Shown here piece by piece: positions 12,457 to 56,400 of a DNA stretch of 64,000 nucleotides. Positions within the stretch are counted from its first letter, which is position 1, and the number at the start of each line of letters is the position of its first letter. Location: contig NW_003107106.1 of the NCBI RefSeq assembly GCF_000003605.2, forward strand, positions 101,709 through 165,708, read 5' to 3'. Under the pieces are notes generated by a model that ran no database searches, was not told the origin of the DNA, and worked only from the letters and a program-made list of their open reading frames with translations. Origin of the DNA: Saccoglossus kowalevskii. Taxonomy: Eukaryota; Hemichordata; Enteropneusta; Harrimaniidae. Position numbers and translations under genes: made by a program.

Positions 12457-13233
12457 TCAGTTTTTCCCTGCACACTGGCACACACATTCAGCGGCTATTG
12501 GGTACGGAACTTTGATCCATTTGCACTTCATCTTATTCGATTTGGATTTTTTTTTCGCTTCCCTGGTAATACGACCACTTGGTTGAATAGGAGGATCTTG
12601 AGAACGCTTGCTCTTCTTTCCACGGCAGTACCAGCGAAGGAGTTGGATATAGGTGGCTGGTCCCGGTTCGCATGACATTCCGTGTGGCCAGGAACAGTCT
12701 TGTTGTACACACTCACCATGTTTGATCCAGCGGGGCCAGAAGAGCAATCCGACGTCCAACCACTCGTGTCTGACAGAACACGATGCTTGTTGAACGAGCC
12801 AGTGTTGCAAGCGTTCTGTCGTTTGTCCATCCATGGTAACGGTTTCCCCATTCTCGTTGGTATACGTAAAGTCTAAACCAGTAGCCTGGTTTTGTAAAGT
12901 GTTTTGCACAGATGTTGTCATTGGGGCGACCTTTTCGTCTGGTTCTTCAACAGACATATAATTTGGGTCGAAGTCTTTACCTAGTTTCTTTTTAAGCTTT
13001 TTGGCACGGAGGTCCCTTGCTTTTGGTTGTAGGCTCTCCTCTATCGTATCACCAGGTATTGCCTGTGCAGTGCCATTACTAACCTTCAAATATGGTGGAG
13101 ATCCGTACAATTGTCTGAGACTAGAGAGAGTACCGTCGTCGTCGGCGGCGGCGTTCGCCCCCGTGCTTAAACAAGAGATTATCACGATAACCTCTAACAG
13201 TAAACTTGAAATACAGATTCTTCTAGGAGACAT
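12457..13233 (-). CDS. NOG-like: Noggin-type secreted BMP antagonist
   Basis: Intact single-exon frame of 258 residues; noggin genes are typically intronless. Residues 1-29 form a hydrophobic signal peptide with likely cleavage near the ANA/A motif. An NGT sequon lies at 53-55. The KLGKDFDPNYM segment (83-93) matches the family's conserved stretch after the BMP-binding clip. LQHWL (143-147) leads into the cystine-knot domain with WPRWIKHGEC (166-175), LLRWYC (198-203) and a PYPIAAECVCQC end. Nine C-terminal cysteines (152, 175, 180, 188, 203, 237, 250, 252, 254) match the vertebrate count. Family knowledge: noggin dimers bind BMP ligands outside the cell and block receptor binding. Oddities: about 27 extra, mostly basic residues between the fifth and sixth cysteines; the HPDP-type clip motif is absent; the basic heparin-binding run normally before LQxWL is absent. 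It could be an orthologue or a noggin-like paralogue; I am sure of the family but not the subgroup. Confidence 0.93.
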   Translation of the reverse strand: MSPRRICISSLLLEVIVIISCLSTGANAAADDDGTLSSLRQLYGSPPYLKVSNGTAQAIPGDTIEESLQPKARDLRAKKLKKKLGKDFDPNYMSVEEPDEKVAPMTTSVQNTLQNQATGLDFTYTNENGETVTMDGQTTERLQHWLVQQASCSVRHEWLDVGLLFWPRWIKHGECVQQDCSWPHGMSCEPGPATYIQLLRWYCRGKKSKRSQDPPIQPSGRITREAKKKSKSNKMKCKWIKVPYPIAAECVCQCAGKN

Positions 13234-14790
13234 GATGTTGTAACGAATGCCGACACTGTACTCACTGTGGCTGTCGGCACCAGTTAATGATTAGCCAGCG
13301 TGGTTGGTGCGGAGCAAACAAAGTCGTTTAGCAGATGATGTCCGAAGCACCGGCAGATGAGTAACAGCTAGTAACAGTACACCATCTAACAACGCATAAT
13401 GGCACCGTGCACGCGTGATGCTCACTTCGTCTTCGAATACCACTTCCCACTTTTCACATTGATATATTCTATCTGCAGTGGCACGATTCACATATATGCA
13501 AAGCAGTGTTCAATGTTCGGGAGACAGTCTAGCATAACTTAAATCTGCTATAGAGATGAATTCCCCGATAACCTCAAGCGCAGACTCTTTAGTCAACCGA
13601 ACAAACAGGAATCAAGAACTATGCACACCCAGTATTGACTTGTCGATTGGTGAATTCCTAGACGTTTTGGTGGGGGAGGGGAACTTCAAGAATCTCACAC
13701 GCCCACGGTGTTCATTTACCACTCACGTTTCCAGCAGACAACTCTACGTGGAACGCTGAAGCGAAGTTGAGGCACGTACGTTGCACGGCGCCTTACGCAA
13801 ATGAGCATGCTTGACTATATCAACCAAATTGCGTTTAACCACACCGCATTCGATATACCAGGAAAGGGAGAGTTCGTACGAAAGGTCGTCCTAGTGATCA
13901 ACTGCCCCTGGCATCACTATAATGGCGAGACGTAGCACTGTTGTGAATAAATAAAACGGTATAAAACAAACAGCCTAAACCAGACATGAAACTCGTAGAC
14001 AGCTACAAGCAAGTCGAATGAAGAGTGTTCCTAATGTCACACTGCTAGTCATCATGTGATTAATACCGGGATATATCTTATGTTGCTTTTAACAAATCTC
14101 AGCTATCCATTATAAATGCCATACTTCATGATATAATATTTAAAAATGTCACCAGGGCCTCGAAAATTAATTACACCTTGTCGCCAATTTTGTGAAGGCA
14201 TATACAATAAATAAAAAAAATAATGAATGAACATTCCTTCAAGCGATGAGTAGCCATACGCATAAAATATTGTGTTTGTATAGAAACAGACTACATACAA
14301 CGCATTGAGACATACCACGTTTAATTTATGTAATAAGTGCGATAGTGCGATGGCCTAGTATTTCGATCTGGGAAACTATAAAATAAATGGAACTTCAAGC
14401 TGATTCTAACTGAGTTAACCACAGGTTTGTAAAGATTAAATGAGAATATATATGTAAAATAAAATAAAATGTAATGTAATGTATCGTGAAACGTGAAATA
14501 AATGTATAGTTTTCCAGTATGATTCATACAAATGCTAAGACTCCTAGAATACGGTTACATGTCAGATTGATGGACCATGTCAATACCACACAGGTAATGT
14601 CTTGACATTAACCATATACTCTACATTCATCTCATGTTAACCCCACTGTAGCAAACCATTACAAATATACCGACAGTTTCGATAGTAGCCGATTTTAAGT
14701 TGTGTTTTGTTTTGAAGTGTTCTGTTTTTCAGAATAACTCATTATTTTTTTATTTTAAAGTACTAAACTCTTTCAGTACAAATTAAGAAA
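13234..14790. other. Upstream region of noggin, no clear promoter motif
   Basis: This lies 5' of the minus-strand noggin gene and should contain its promoter. I see no convincing TATA box at a sensible distance. Short open frames at 13291-13491 and 13556-13759 have no family resemblance. Confidence 0.4.
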
Positions 14791-30487: not shown

Positions 30488-30570
30488 AGCAGGAGGGTCA
30501 CCTGCGCACGCGCAGGAATTGAGTCCCAAACGACGATAACAACACACGATAAAAACGCAAAGGCTCATGG
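30488..30570 (-). mobile_element. TTAA-flanked MITE, family T2, truncated copy
   Basis: After TTAA (30484-30487) the sequence AGCAGGAGGGTCACCTGCGC and the following GATAACAACACACGATAAAAACGCAAAGGCTCATG match the reverse complement of the right half of 33301-33432. The match stops near 30570, so the other end is missing. Confidence 0.7.
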
Positions 30571-33097: not shown

Positions 33098-36000
33098 ATG
33101 GCCAATCAGAACCAGAAGAGGTATCCAGCTCAATCTGATTTTCCAGACTTAAGCAAAAGCAATGCTCTTCTAAAAGATTATTTGACTCAAGACATCTACG
33201 CTAAACTTCGTGATGTCAGAACATCAAGTGGTTTCACATTTGATCGAGCAATCCAACACTGCCTTGATAGAGTTACAGGTATGTACCATGCGGTTGTTAA
33301 AGCGGAGGAGTGGTGACCTACGCATGCGTCAGGTGGCCATAGCGTGTCATGAGCCCTTGCGTTCTTAGCGTGTGTTGTTATCATCGCTTGCGACTCAATT
33401 TCCGCGCGTGCGCAGGTGACAACTCTCCCGCTTTAATAGTAGTGATCATTATGTAGCACACTGTGAAGTATTATATACAAATATTATATAGTTTATTATA
33501 ATAATACAATGATTTTTATATCATATCAGAAACTATCGGCATTGTCGCTGGTGATGAGGACTCGTATACTGTGTTCGCAGATATTTTTGGTCCAGTAATA
33601 GAACGGTACCATAAAATCGTCCGGGCTGGTAGGTGGTCTAGCTGTTTAGTTGGTGTATCTATCACGTCTAACTTATTGAAATCGAATACAATATCGTATT
33701 CTACAGCAAATACAAAACTCTGAATGAACATATTAGACAATGATCGAATGTTAAGCTCATGTCGAATTCCCGGATTAGAAAATGTATTCAAAAAATAACA
33801 AAATACAAATGAATGAGACATTTAGCAACAATAGGCATAAGTTTTACTTTACGTTGTCAGCATTAACCTTTTTTGCAGAATGTATGAATGTAACTGATCT
33901 GTCTCCCGAAAAGATAACAGGAGAGATTTTTGACGAGAATTATGTTGTCAGTACCAGAATACGAGCAAGTCGAAATATTCGTGGATTTTGCCTGCCGCCA
34001 TTCTGCTGTAGATCTGAGCGAAGGGCAGTGGAAAGAAGTATTGTCTGTGGTAATTGGTCACGTTTTTTAATTACGTCCCAATAGGAACATATTTATTTGA
34101 GCACTGTTCATGAAATTAAACTGTCTGCGAGAAATTGCTCCGAAGTTTGAATGGAAAAACATAAATTTAATATTCATATTCGGAATATTTACACTCTAGT
34201 AATATAGTTACATATGAGTTACGATCTTATAATTCTTCTAGACATATTTTCTTTATAGCTAACACATTTGTCATGGTTTCTATTTTAGACGATCATCATT
34301 TCAAAATTATCAATGTTATTGAACTGAACCTATATATTTAAACACTTTAGTTAAAATTTATGCTAAAATAGTAATTGTCAAGCCAAGCAAAATAAGAAAA
34401 GAAATATGGGCTGGAGTTTATTGTAAAGGCACAATTTAACAAATTGTCTTTGTTCTATTAATAGGAAATTTATGTTTTTTGTGTGTGTGTTTTCTTTACA
34501 ATTCCTGCGTTTGAATGAATGACTATGTTTACAAATCAATGTGCATATGTATAATATCATGTATGTGTGAAGTTTGATTATGATTGGTCCAGGCATTTCT
34601 GAGATACAGGTCCGGAATCACACACGCACGAACGCACGGACACACGCACAGACGCACACAGGTAAAACATAAGTCCCCGTTTTTGGACTGCGTCCGAACG
34701 GGGGCTAATAGTGAAGAACAGTACATCTTTCAATTTAAATATTTCAAATAAAAAAAGGTTTTAAATGCCCATTTTATCCGAGACCTGCCAGTGTTATTGT
34801 GGGTGGGGTGGGTGTGTATGTGTGAGTCTGATACACACGCATGTGCAATTATTTCATGATTGGTTCAAAAATGGCCGACGTTACTTCAATTTGTGTATTT
34901 GACGAGAGGCAACCCAAAGGTCGTTTATACATGCCTTGAGCAATTCATGAGAGCACCCACAAGTTTCTACTGTATCCCTCACCCCTATCTTTTTTTATTT
35001 TGAAATCTTGTCCCAGGGATTGTCAGCTTTTCCTTTAAAATCCATTGAGCTTATAACAAAATGTATAGTTTTGTGATGTAATACACATTTATGCGGGGTG
35101 CAATAGAAAGTGAGGGTGCAATAGGAACTAGGTACTATTGTCCCTCGGGTGCAATAAGACGAGGGGGCAATAGAAACACAGACACACATAATGGTGGATC
35201 CCAAATAAGCTGATTTCAGAAAGCACTCTATAATATTTTTCATTCACACAATATTTATTTTATCATTTTATTTCCAGCCCTAAATTCATTTCCTGGTGGG
35301 GAGTATCACCCTCTGTCGACCATGGATGATGCATTGTGCAAATCATTGATGTCAAACCATTACCTGTTTAGAACACCTAAAGTCGGATTCCAATTAGTAT
35401 CTGGATGTGCTAGAGATTGGCCCGATGCACGGGGCATTTGGTAAGACCTTGTAGGAATTTGAAAATACACAATTTCCATAAGATATTTAACTAATACCAC
35501 TATTATATTATTATTTGTTTGGTCAATATTCAGAGTTTACCATAGGAGACAAGTATTAACCTCGTTTCAACCTCGCACTGACCTTTTCAATTTGAGTATT
35601 CTGAGCTGAATATTGACCGCTACTTAGATGACTTATTGCGTATATCCACGTAGCACTGTAACATGCCCACCAATGATTTGGTCACTAATTATTACAGGTA
35701 TACCGAGGACAAAACGTTGATATTTTGGGTGAATGAAGAAGACCACATGAGAGTAATTTCCATGCAGCCAGGGGGTCATGTAAAGGAGGTTTTCACACGA
35801 TTTTGCAATGCAATGAAACAGGTAATGATATATTTTGAACTTTCGAATATGTATGCAAATATCAACTAACTTCATTGACGACGGCCCACCAATAATAGGG
35901 TAAAACACATGATTGTTTTATCTGACAGAATTATACAGGGGAAACTTTGTGACCGAATAAATACCCAGGTTAATGGTCAATCGTGTGCTAATGTTAAATC

Positions 36001-37954
36001 CAACCTGGAATTAGCTAAGTGTCACCAACCCCAATTTGACCTGGTCAGCCAAGGAAGGTCTGTACTTGTAACATACATGTACCTACGTATACAAGTGAAC
36101 TAGTCATTCTAACCAAAGCCTAGAGCCACAAAGAGAAAACCAAACACTGACTAACAAAATTAGTGTCAACACGAGATATAGACCACTTGTTTCTTTTCGA
36201 GAAGCTGCACCATCCTTTTTTCTAGTTCATTAACTTTATTCCTAGTTGGTTCAATCAAATCTTCTTCTCTCAACACTGGCCTGAAAATATTTTAGGCTGA
36301 AGGTGGTGACCAAAAGTTCGATTCTAAAGTTGTATCACACTTCGAATATCTAATCACTAAAACAAGGAATTGCTTACATTGGAAGAATTCCGCTTTACTG
36401 GGAGGACAGGGAACCTGCCACTATCTTTGGCCCATATGACTAGCATTGTGTGATGGTAAAGGAGGTCTTGTGCAGATTCCCTTTGTTGGGTGGCCGTAAA
36501 AGACCAGATTTGGGCATCGAGTACATATAGGACCTTAAGTCAAGTCTTCATTGCTTAGGTGGGAATTCTCCACAAATACAAATTTGTATGTTTCAAAACA
36601 AGAGGCGGTGTATAAATCGACAAGCGAATGCCCTCAGGCGGCCTGCTTTAGAAAGGTTGTTAAGGGGCGGCTATGAGTTTCTAGGTACAAATACGTCAGC
36701 CAATCACTATCAGTCAAACCATCTCCTATTCTGAGATCTAATGCCCGACAGTGAATTGCGCTTTATTTAACCATGGTCTTGTTCATTAATATTGTCTCCC
36801 TGATACCACGTAATTGTGAACATATTTGGGAATGGTATGTAGTTTCACACTAGCTTGTAGATTCATAAAAATCATGTCACAGAAAAATTTCATTTCATTT
36901 TCCAGATTCAATATGGAGAAAATATTTTTCGTATTCAATAGAAAAATAAGGTACAAATATACGCACAACCTGTAGAAAAAATTCATAAGGCGAATATGTA
37001 AAATGATATTCTCCTTACGCTTTTTGAACTTGCTGTAGTGAAGAATAGATATTTTTTGCCTGATGTACATATAAACGAATGTCTCATTGTTTAAACTAGA
37101 ACACAGTGTTTGGAAATCAGACACATCTGGGCCGTCTTCGCTTGTCATAAACTTCAAAAAATGTAGTTCACAGTTTTATCGAATGTTATGTTTGCATGGT
37201 TTATCTTTTTTACAAAAAAATATCATTGCTGTACGTCACATGGCGTTCTGCAAAACAAATTTACCACCACTTAAACATGAGTCTGTGAATTTGAAATATT
37301 AGTCATATTCAGTTGCAGTTAATAGTTGCTTACCGGTGTCCAGTATTATTTAGATGCCTTTCTTGTACATTACTATTTTTGTTTTCTTAGGTTGAACAAA
37401 CGCTGAAAATCCAGAACCATCAATTCATGTGGAGGGCTGATCTAGGTTACCTCAGTACTGAACCAGCTAACCTCGGCACAGGATTGAGAGCGAGTGTTCA
37501 TGTTAAACTGCCGAACTTATCCAAGCATCCAAGGTTTTATAAAATATTATCATCTTTAAAACTAGAGTGTCGTGGAACAGGTAATATTTCACATTGTCTT
37601 CTTCTTATCATAATTATGTAGTCTGGGTTGTAGATATTGTAAACGGGGTAAATGACAAGACCATTAGGTTTTATATCCAATAATGAACAATTTGTAACTT
37701 TAAGTCATATTAAGAGCAATATTTTTTTGTTTTGACAACTTTTTTTTAACTTTCGATATTTATGCTGTTTTAATCTTTTAGCCGGATATGGTAGTGCTAT
37801 CAAAGATGGTATATGTGATATTTCTAATTCAGTACGTCTCGGTGTTTCTGAAGTCTATTTGGTGCAGACGTGGATAGATAATGTCAACCTTCTCATTCAG
37901 ATAGAAATGCGATTAGAAAATATACAGCCTATTGATGATTTACTTCCTATGTGA
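33098..37954 (+). CDS. CK-like: Creatine-kinase-family phosphagen kinase, 7 exons, 366 aa
   Basis: Coding exons: 33098-33278, 33530-33628, 33879-34049, 35278-35440, 35698-35821, 37391-37580, 37782-37954. All have GT-AG junctions with phases 1,1,1,2,0,1, giving 366 codons and TGA without a break; creatine kinases are about 380. Visible family signatures: GFTFDRAIQ (45-53), [25 protein letters not shown] (118-134, with nucleotide-binding Arg120/122), [16 protein letters not shown] (195-205), [14 protein letters not shown] (215-228, catalytic Glu), [10 protein letters not shown] (274-283), RGT (307-309) and DISN. The family moves phosphate between ATP and a guanidino compound to buffer cellular energy. 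Anomalies: the reactive Cys of T-C-P-S/T-N-L is Glu270 (TEPANLGTG); the mobile loop reads RGTAGYGSA rather than the usual RGTGGVDTA; the guanidino-specificity loop is about four residues shorter than in creatine kinase (LDRVTETIG, 56-64). Substrate therefore uncertain; no organelle presequence seen. Confidence 0.93.
33301..33432 (+). mobile_element. TTAA-flanked MITE, family T2, in kinase intron 1
   Basis: Bounded by TTAA at 33297-33300 and 33433-33436. The left end AGCGGAGGAGTGGTGACC mirrors the right end, whose reverse complement is AGCGGGAGAGTTGTCACC, and the repeats continue into CTACGCATGCG / CTGCGCACGCG. It is about 132 bp with no coding capacity. It begins 17 bases into the intron, just after the exon 1 donor. 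A truncated relative lies at 30488-30570. The TTAA duplication suggests piggyBac-type mobilisation. Confidence 0.8.
34520..34735 (-). repeat. Dispersed repeat R2, head fragment (inverted) in kinase intron 3
   Basis: On the minus strand this begins CCCGTTCGGACGCAGTCC followed by AAAAACGGGGACTTATG, then CA/CG-rich simple sequence and AAACTTCACACATACATGAT. The same blocks open the repeat at 60479-61420. The opening bases can fold as a stem (CCCGTT/AACGGG) with an inner GGAC/GTCC stem. Confidence 0.7.
36104..37385. other. Kinase intron 5, no internal gene
   Basis: AT-rich intron sequence. The minus-strand frame 36786-37157 (123 codons, Leu/Ile/Tyr-rich) has no family resemblance. No repeat recognised. 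Confidence 0.45.
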
Positions 37955-38409: not shown

Positions 38410-38415
38410 AATAAA
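38410..38415 (+). promoter_or_regulatory. Candidate poly(A) signal of the phosphagen kinase
   Basis: AATAAA about 455 bases after the TGA stop, followed by T-rich sequence. This is a sensible 3' UTR length. No transcript evidence. Confidence 0.45.
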
Positions 38416-53389: not shown

Positions 53390-53471
53390 CAAATGTGCGC
53401 ATGCGCATAGCTAGCCGTGTCAACTTCAGTGACCTCCTGCGTAACAAGGGTCACCAATGCCTTTATAAACA

Positions 53472-56400
53472 ATGGCGACCCCGACTTTGTTTCGCCCTTG
53501 GTTTGGGCGATGTTTTTTTTTCGATTTAAACAAGAATATGAGAAACCACTGTCGTGTTTCATTGGTTCAAGCATCAACGACGGTAAAGGCATCGGAAAAT
53601 CATGATCATAAACAACTGAAACCCTTTAAAGAAATCCCAGGTGAAGGCTCATCCAGTTTTGTATCAGGTGTTCTTTATGCGGTGAAAGGATGGCGTTCTG
53701 GCAGTGCATCTCGTCAACCATGGCCAGCTTATGATAAATGGGAAAACAAATATGGGACATTATACAAGAGAGTGTTTGGAAAAACCGTTTCAGTATTTAT
53801 CACGGATGCCAATGACATAGAGAAGGTTTTTCGAAGTGGCGGGTCGACGCCAATACGATTTGAGCACACGTTTTTCGACATTCTTAGTGCATGGCGATTT
53901 TATAAACAAACTAAAGGATTGCCCCTTGGAACGTTGACAGCGTGAGTAGATTTCGTATTAAAGGGCGGTCGTCGTCGCGCCACGCATGCGCGAGATATAT
54001 GGGTCTCATATAAACAAACATGGCGACTTGGACTGTTGCGCAAATCAACGAGTACAAACTGAGACGTTACCAAGCTTTAAATAGGTATTTTTTAGGTGAT
54101 TGGAAGGTATCGAAGAGTCACAGGTGATAATTAGTGCAAGTCCTGCCCAGTTCAAACCTCATACTTATGATTTCCATTAGAAGGGCGCATTGGATTGTGG
54201 GAAAATCAATGTTTATCAACACAAATGTCGCACATGTGCAGCGTGACGACCATCGCACTTTAGGTTATAGATTGACAATACTGGTAAACACTGTATTTGA
54301 TCAAGGCCACTGCAGCATAAAGCGGGATATTGTATATACTTTGTCGAACGGAGCTTATCATATGTGTGATTATCCGTCGTTCATGTCAACTTTTTACTTT
54401 TTCAACTTCTTCTTGACAACTTCAATTCTTATTGCTTTGATATTAGATGTATATGTACCTTGGACAGACCTCTCTAAGATTTGTTCATTTCGTGATGATA
54501 TCTTTAATTCTCTAATTTTGATAAAAAGTGATATTTTCGACTTCTTGTTAAAAAACGGAAGTCTGATTGCTTTGATATTATACATATATGGTATGTACCT
54601 CAGGTAGACCTCTCTCAGATTTATTCATTTTCCAATGATATGTGCATTGCTAACAGTGGATCTATCTCAGCCGAGAGGCTGCTTGTTTCATTATGTGATA
54701 ATTAAATTATTGAAATATGAAACAAACTTCATTACTATTTTGGTGGTGATATTTACACCAGGATTTTATGCAATGTGATGACCTGGGGTGTTTTTCTGTT
54801 CACAACAGCTATTGATCTACACATGAAATGACGCATAACGCGCAAACTGAAAGTTTATTTGAAGACTAAATGGCATTTGCAGTCATTACGAAAACAACTT
54901 ATATCACATAATACAAAAGGGCATACAGATGAACATTAAGGTGGAGATGCAGGTTCATGGGCACTTGGAGACATTTTTTTTTTTTATTTGCTTTTTCTTA
55001 CCAGACAGTCTTGCATGGTTAGATAGTGTTAAAATTTCGGAGCTCTGTCAAAAGTGGAACATGATAAAAAAATGATTTTAAAATATAGGAAACCCAGGTA
55101 CGCGTATGTGATTAAAAGTTTGTTTACATCTGACTGTTGATGATATATGCAAATGAGTTGCTGGCCTCGTACAATTTATGATTTCCTCCTGCACTGCATG
55201 GTTCCCTGTTTACTTACCTCAAACGCTATCTACTAGCCTAGTAGATCACAGTATGCTGCGGTTGCTATAATCGATACCTGTCAAAATACACAAAAGATTA
55301 ATTAAAAATACCCTGGAAATTACATCAAAATCGGCAACAAGATGTGTGATGACCAGAATGGCTGCCATTTTAATGTTAAAAATCAAGCATTTCTACCATT
55401 CCAGACCCTGCACCATACTGTAGCAATTGTTCAAACTTCATGCATGACAGCATTCAAATTACCCGATAATATTAATAATAATGATTTAAAAATAATAATT
55501 TAACTAAATAATTAGTGGTGTCTAAGCAGAAGTGGATTAGTGTATGACCTGTTAATGACTATGTGGATGGTATGCATTTGAAGTCTGACAAACAAAGACG
55601 ATAAATTTTGGCCACTGTAGCACAAATGCCCAAAATTGTCATTTTCACAGGGATTTCAAGATGGTGGCTATATCACATGACTGATCACAGTCATCAGAAG
55701 TTAAATCAGTCATGAGAAACAAAAGAACAAAGTTTTTGCTATTTGTACTGGAAATTCAATGTTACTGATTCTTATTTAGCTGTCTAATAGAGAGAGAGAT
55801 ACGACACAAGAATTTTCAAAATAATCTGGTAACTCAGTAAATAAACCCCTTTCCTGTTTATAGAATAAATTAGAAATGGCGACCAAACCACATTACCGAC
55901 CATAAAAGATTTTAATATGCTTTACACGTAGATGCCGGAAACCAAATTTCAGATCAATGTGTACAGTGATTCTGGAAAAGAAGATTTTCAAGTATTTTTT
56001 GTCATTTTTCAAAAAAAAAAAAATGGTGGAAAAAGTTACCTGACTGCTAAGGTTTTTATTGCTTATATGTATTATAAATATGTTGTAGTACATGCCATAA
56101 AAAAATTGAGATCGCCAAATAGCCACTTCTGGTTTAATTTTAATCCAAAATGGCTGCAAAATCAGTGGACCAATCAAAACTTTGAAAGTCAGGTGCTCCA
56201 ATTCACACAAGCAACCATTAGCATGGAAAGTTAGAGAAGATTCTGCCCAGCATTTTTACAAGCTAATGAAAAATGACAAAAAAGAGAAGAACTGGAAGAA
56301 AATGTGAACAATAACAATAGGGGCCCAAGCCCTGCTGGCTTGGACTCCAAATAATAATATTTTTCATATCAGATCCAGAAAAAATAATTTTATATTTTAA

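Follow-up and report, generated by a model that had tools for sequence, protein, structure and literature searches.

Can an ATP:guanido phosphotransferase be maintained without the cysteine that its relatives carry in the active site, and what would such a protein do? The question is raised by a gene lying in the window, as the whole stretch of 64,000 nucleotides analysed here is called, in whose product the reactive-cysteine site is occupied by a glutamate, Glu270. What the reactive cysteine and the two glutamates do is described as still disputed in excerpts of two papers (PMC11075012, PMC12467219). A naturally maintained protein in which the cysteine has become glutamate, and its partner in the mobile loop has also been replaced, would reveal which purpose the cysteine serves and how acceptor specificity evolves. 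If inactive, the protein would be a phosphagen-kinase pseudoenzyme; no report of a phosphagen-kinase or creatine kinase (CK) pseudoenzyme was found in the literature searched by title and the start of the abstract.

Gene structure and the reactive-cysteine site

Joining of the exons from the window sequence gave a gene of seven exons on the + strand, spanning positions 33098-37954 (Table 1), with GT-AG borders at every intron and a coding sequence of 1101 nt that is translated into 366 amino acids without internal stops or frame errors. The first-pass annotation had placed the feature at 37391..37954, which corresponds to exons 6 and 7 and not to the whole gene; its glutamate codon GAA in exon 6, within TEPANLGTG (from residue 269), and its seven exons joined in frame to 366 residues were confirmed. 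The other motifs that it had named lie as claimed, namely STRIR with Arg120 and Arg122 (residues 118-122), the Glu of NEEDH (217-221), Arg279, which belongs to GTGLR (275-279), and Arg307 and the mobile loop RGTAGYGSA (307-315). The product matches the Pfam profiles PF00217 (209.3 bits) and PF02807 (82.4 bits), both above the respective cut-offs of 22.4 and 25.7, and contains the catalytic glutamate (Glu225 in arginine kinase, AK) as Glu219 together with the phosphate-binding arginines 120, 122, 223, 279, 307 and 328. Judging by these profile matches and residues, the gene is a genuine member of the ATP:guanido phosphotransferase family.

Table 1. Positions in the window of the exons, of selected codons and of a candidate polyadenylation signal of the kinase gene
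Feature	Position	Strand	Remarks
Exon 1	33098..33278	+	ATG at 33098; residues 1-60 and first base of codon 61
Exon 2	33530..33628	+	Remainder of codon 61 to residue 93; adjoins the shortened guanidino-specificity region; holds Tyr87
Exon 3	33879..34049	+	STRIR, Arg120, Arg122
Exon 4	35278..35440	+	His178; lacks three residues (FPG---GEY) that the other panel rows have
Exon 5	35698..35821	+	NEEDH, Glu219, Arg223
Exon 6	37391..37580	+	TEPANLGTG, Asn273, Arg279; start of mobile loop RGTAGYGSA
Exon 7	37782..37954	+	Continuation of mobile loop RGTAGYGSA from exon 6; TGA stop
Codon 87, Tyr	33607..33609	+	Guanidine-specificity residue; Tyr in AK rows, Arg in CK rows; coordinates derived from exon starts
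Codon 219, Glu (AK Glu225)	35738..35740	+	Kept; coordinates derived from exon starts
Codon 270, GAA (Glu)	37460..37462	+	Reactive-cysteine site (AK Cys271, CK Cys283)
Codon 312, Tyr	37787..37789	+	Glu in AK rows (AK Glu314), Val in CK rows (CK Val325); coordinates derived from exon starts
Candidate polyadenylation signal (AATAAA/ATTAAA hexamer)	38410..38415	+	First 3' of the stop, 456 bases past 37954; by consensus only

No second copy of the kinase was found within the 64-kb window, and neither there nor among the best candidates scored in the animal's own genome was an intact cysteine-bearing allele or copy of the gene detected. Intron 1 contains a short repeat with inverted ends (33297-33436; ends of 32 nt, 81%), part of which recurs inverted 2.8 kb upstream (30497-30569; 73 nt, 89%), and which resembles a small transposable element. 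Elsewhere in the window, an open frame on the - strand (12457-13290) matches Pfam Noggin (PF05806, 151.5 bits, reaching the end of the profile) and apparently represents a single-exon noggin-like gene. Another open frame, at 53469-53945 on the + strand, presumably resembles the first part of a cytochrome P450 of mitochondrial type; Pfam gave no match on this fragment. The window yielded no Rfam match at the gathering score and no tRNA.

The product was aligned with a panel of 13 other rows, which comprises five CK domains of the own genome, human CK-B and an M-type CK (seven CK rows), and 3ju5, the two domains of 4rf6 and three bacterial AKs (six AK rows). Cysteine stands at the reactive site in 13 of the 13 rows, and glutamate in the window product alone, which thus departs from the CPxNLGTx motif at its reactive cysteine. 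Among bacterial relatives, cysteine occupies the site in all 80 loci inspected (the best 80 of 188; 79 by pattern and one by eye). To judge by record titles, these 80 loci belong mostly to Campylobacterota and Desulfuromusa assemblies; a motif ending in NLGTG or NLGSG occurs in none of them, and the four loci that were read out end in NLGTA. Of 170 pattern matches in viruses, none was a relative. McsB, the bacterial protein-arginine kinase, which stands outside the panel alignment, has a catalytically essential cysteine according to an excerpt of a review (PMC12467219). In the literature searched by title and the start of the abstract, where most subscription journals fall outside coverage and absence is weakly evidenced, no naturally occurring phosphagen kinase that lacks the reactive cysteine was evident.

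GAA agrees at no base with either cysteine codon, TGT or TGC; at least three substitutions are thus implied, and Glu270 is not explicable by one sequencing error. In favour of a fault of sequencing or assembly at this codon are the use of one assembly and the presence of two runs of N elsewhere in the window; against it, each base of the codon would have to be wrong independently, and the protein is diverged throughout. The probability of such a fault is taken to be minimal. Given a codon hit three times, the gene has, moreover, most likely been kept intact since its loss of the cysteine.

Divergence, ancestry and constraint

A view of the cysteine change as an almost isolated departure from an ordinary kinase is not supported, since the whole protein is unusually diverged. 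The terminal branch of the window protein measures 1.11; the median is 0.19, and the other rows of the CK clade range from 0.12 to 0.32. From the 78 columns invariant in the other 13 rows the window protein keeps 65 and loses 13, whereas the loss was of 0 to 5 invariant residues when each other row was left out in turn; from the columns invariant in the CK clade it keeps 101 of 141. Among the 13 lost invariants are His97, Phe179, His206, Asn207, Phe212, Leu213 and the cysteine of position 270, while Ser118, Arg120, Arg122, His178, Glu218, Glu219, Arg223, Asn273, Arg279, His283, Arg307 and Arg328 are kept. The long branch, the losses of His97 and of His206-Asn207, the 3-residue deletion in exon 4, a deletion of four residues in the guanidino loop and Tyr87 beside it are all features additional to those of the first-pass annotation.

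A long branch and the loss of conserved residues would also be expected of a young pseudogene, that is, a gene silenced recently and still unbroken. Against such an origin, no stop or frameshift interrupts the 1101 nt and the introns are all GT-AG; in a simple neutral-drift simulation, with the indel rate assumed to be one tenth of substitutions, 2% divergence left 39 of 400 copies with neither a stop nor a frameshift, and 5% left 0 of 400. Because the cysteine codon has changed at all three of its bases, the loss of cysteine probably predates any silencing short enough to spare the frame. A recently silenced gene is hence considered improbable.

In the own genome (572,110,611 bases in 4830 contigs, best candidates scored) 14 matches to PF00217 fell at four loci, the window and those designated C170, C1014 and C1649, and none in the 14 control genomes; with the window protein as query, 20 matches were obtained, again at these four loci. 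The other three loci are all CK-like, with cysteine and RGTGGVDT in five of five domains; among the four loci, glutamate occurs at that of the window only. C1014 is a seven-exon cytosolic-type CK. C170 holds three CK domains in one uninterrupted open frame (locus L092, 3168-6608), whereas introns interrupt the single-domain genes; it is presumably a flagellar-type three-domain CK. The multi-exon C1649 is taken to be a mitochondrial-type CK, and its row entered the panel without its first exons, which were not found in loci L090, L091 and L097. No canonical or classical AK was found among the best candidates scored in this genome as assembled. The apparent absence is noteworthy because Holothuroidea, Echinoidea and Crinoidea appear in what is apparently the arginine kinase part of a review table, as far as the excerpt of that review goes (PMC6429109).

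The window protein is 52.2% identical to CK-B (3b6r), 50.8% to C1014, 49.6% to the M-type CK and 48.8% to 3ju5 (363 columns), and 48.5 to 50.1% to the remaining own domains; its identity with the other AK rows lies between 38.2 and 41.8%. The best tree places it between 3ju5 and the CKs, grouped with the CKs (support 84/83) and on a long branch. Its grouping with 3ju5 was not rejected (p-AU 0.122) and that with C1014 was disfavoured (p-AU 0.017), both in a test that is weakened in that the groups were named after the tree had been seen and that the window branch is long. On that second value, a recent copy of the own cytosolic CK is disfavoured as origin. A retro-copy was set aside, given the six introns, with phases as in C1014 and places matching as far as the gapped alignment allows. 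Eleven residues of the window protein, Tyr87 among them, agree with 3ju5 and occur in none of the seven CK rows, where the same count for each CK row against the other six gave 2 to 9; 20 residues match all CKs at places where 3ju5 differs. The 4-residue deletion in the guanidino loop is common to the window protein, 3ju5 and distant AKs and, because the distant AKs also have it, may be old or convergent.

The first-pass annotation had proposed that selection has kept either a kinase that acts on an unusual substrate or a pseudoenzyme with a regulatory role. The intact gene and the codon hit three times are in agreement with selection, as is the pairwise codon likelihood against C1014, in which omega = 1 was rejected (2dlnL 170.9) under saturation of the synonymous sites and with the pair's earlier common history entering the comparison; between its two alternatives the data do not choose. 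As dS reached 17 for this pair and tended to infinity for three further pairs, the omega values were set aside as saturated, and nothing beyond the rejection of omega = 1 is taken from this analysis.

The guanidine pocket and its possible function

According to an excerpt of PMC11075012, three residues of AK, Glu225, Glu314 and Cys271, grip the guanidinium, and the cysteine forms a hydrogen bond with it. The window protein keeps the first as Glu219, and has Tyr312 and Glu270 at the other two places; the acidic groups left are two, a number equal to that of CK, with its glutamate and thiolate. The guanidine contacts are unlike those of every compared enzyme, in that Glu270 replaces Cys, Tyr312 replaces Glu or Val and Gly313 replaces His, Phe or Asp, and the mobile loop fits neither AK nor CK, since Tyr312 stands where AK has Glu and CK has Val. 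At the substrate loop, by contrast, the aligned residues indicate that the protein is similar to the dimeric AK 3ju5, both having the shortened guanidino loop and a tyrosine as specificity residue. In an excerpt of PMC3836730 this residue is given as Tyr in AK, Arg in CK, Ile in glycocyamine kinase, His in taurocyamine kinase and Lys in lombricine kinase, and a trematode taurocyamine kinase is reported to have a tyrosine, Tyr84, whose change reduced or abolished activity. By analogy with the trematode enzyme, the substrate of the window protein may be taurocyamine-like. Tyr87 thus points to an acceptor such as arginine or that of the trematode taurocyamine kinase, if the alignment is a guide, while the mobile loop points to neither.

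The reading placed first, although tentatively, is that of a maintained, fast-evolving single-domain kinase of the CK clade whose guanidine pocket would have been rebuilt around Glu270. Such a kinase would still bind Mg-ATP, close over a guanidino compound and transfer phosphate. The fixed negative charge of Glu270 would replace the low-pKa thiolate, and Glu219 and Glu270, as a clamp of two glutamates, would pin the guanidinium with the acceptor displaced; the longer side chain of Glu270 would shift the acceptor so that arginine and creatine become poor substrates. Oxidation at that site would no longer inactivate such an enzyme. In mitochondrial CK, mutants of the reactive cysteine reportedly kept reduced activity (Furter 1993), and the title of a 2004 study by Gattis refers to partially active mutants of the same residue in arginine kinase.

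A maintained kinase is favoured by the seven intact exons, by a codon with at least three substitutions, more than a recent loss would give, by the rejection of omega = 1 against C1014, and by the loop deletion and Tyr87 shared with 3ju5. It is favoured also by retention of Glu219 and of the nucleotide and phosphate grip, which from the residues present (Ser118, Arg120, Arg122, His178, Arg223, Asn273, Arg279, His283, Arg307, Arg328) is kept; at the observed rate of loss, however, chance would spare all ten of these residues about 1 time in 6, which is not significant, and because of this their survival is weak evidence of catalysis. Against a maintained kinase stand the branch of 1.11 and the 13 of 78 invariants lost, both of which fit relaxed constraint or a non-catalytic role; the removal of the cysteine and the loop glutamate, two of the three groups that contact guanidine in AK; and the best tree, which does not unite the window protein with 3ju5, with 20 residues matching all CKs instead.

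Several of these observations would suit equally a pseudoenzyme, folded and possibly nucleotide-binding but transferring no phosphate, which would act by binding, for example by forming dimers with a CK of the own genome. The long branch, the lost invariants (His97, His206-Asn207, Phe212-Leu213 and the cysteine among them) and the altered mobile loop are consistent with it, and three ordinary CK-like genes in the genome could do the enzymatic work; a pure scaffold, on the other hand, would need neither Glu219 nor the arginines of the phosphate grip, and the several changes at the guanidine contacts, as read from the alignment, would also tell against it. A nucleotide-binding pseudoenzyme is accordingly ranked just below the maintained kinase, as nearly as likely.

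If the maintained kinase is nevertheless followed to its full consequences, the gene would encode a natural phosphagen kinase that uses a second active-site glutamate in place of the cysteine, acts on a new guanidino acceptor, is proof against thiol oxidation at that site and is the only AK-like gene found in the animal. This complete proposal is regarded as unlikely, though worth stating.

Comparison with known phosphagen kinases

Among single-domain structures, the sequence matches of the window protein were highest with human CK-B (3b6r, 399 bits) and 3ju5 (366), followed by lombricine kinase (3jpz, 330) and glycocyamine kinase (3l2d, 320); classical AKs reached up to 220 bits, with 198 for 1m15, which is taken here to be the Limulus AK. 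The two-domain entries gave summed scores, 501 bits for the AK 4rf6 (243 and 256 per domain) and 347 for the taurocyamine kinase 4wo8. The lombricine, glycocyamine and taurocyamine kinases 3jpz, 3l2d and 4wo8, compared by match score and outside the panel alignment, belong to the same family and score lower than CK-B and 3ju5; their groups have, respectively, Lys, Ile and His at the specificity position (PMC3836730, in excerpt), where the window protein has Tyr87.

With C170 the window protein shares the family and about 50% identity per domain, but C170 consists of three domains fused in one frame, with cysteine in all three. The cytosolic CKs are its closest relatives by identity, CK-B and C1014 at the head, and the gene of C1014 likewise has seven coding exons, with intron phases 1,1,1,2,0,1 in both. 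Unlike the window protein, with its Tyr87, 4-residue deletion and Tyr312, the CKs have arginine at the specificity site, a longer guanidino loop with no such deletion, the reactive cysteine, and RGTGGVDT with its valine in the mobile loop.

The remaining comparison is with 3ju5, the dimeric AK described as a sea cucumber enzyme in an excerpt of PMC12387690; its source, Stichopus japonicus, is taken to be the same species as Apostichopus japonicus, an echinoderm. The resemblance to this enzyme would point to an echinoderm or another deuterostome as the source of the window. Both proteins have a single domain and a similar N-terminus of equal length (MAN-NQK-YPA), a guanidino loop four residues shorter than that of CK and a tyrosine as specificity residue. 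They differ in that 3ju5 has a branch of 0.32 and retains the cysteine together with RGTSGEFTE, whose glutamate is present in all six AK rows, whereas the window protein, with a branch of 1.11, combines Glu270 with RGTAGYGSA.
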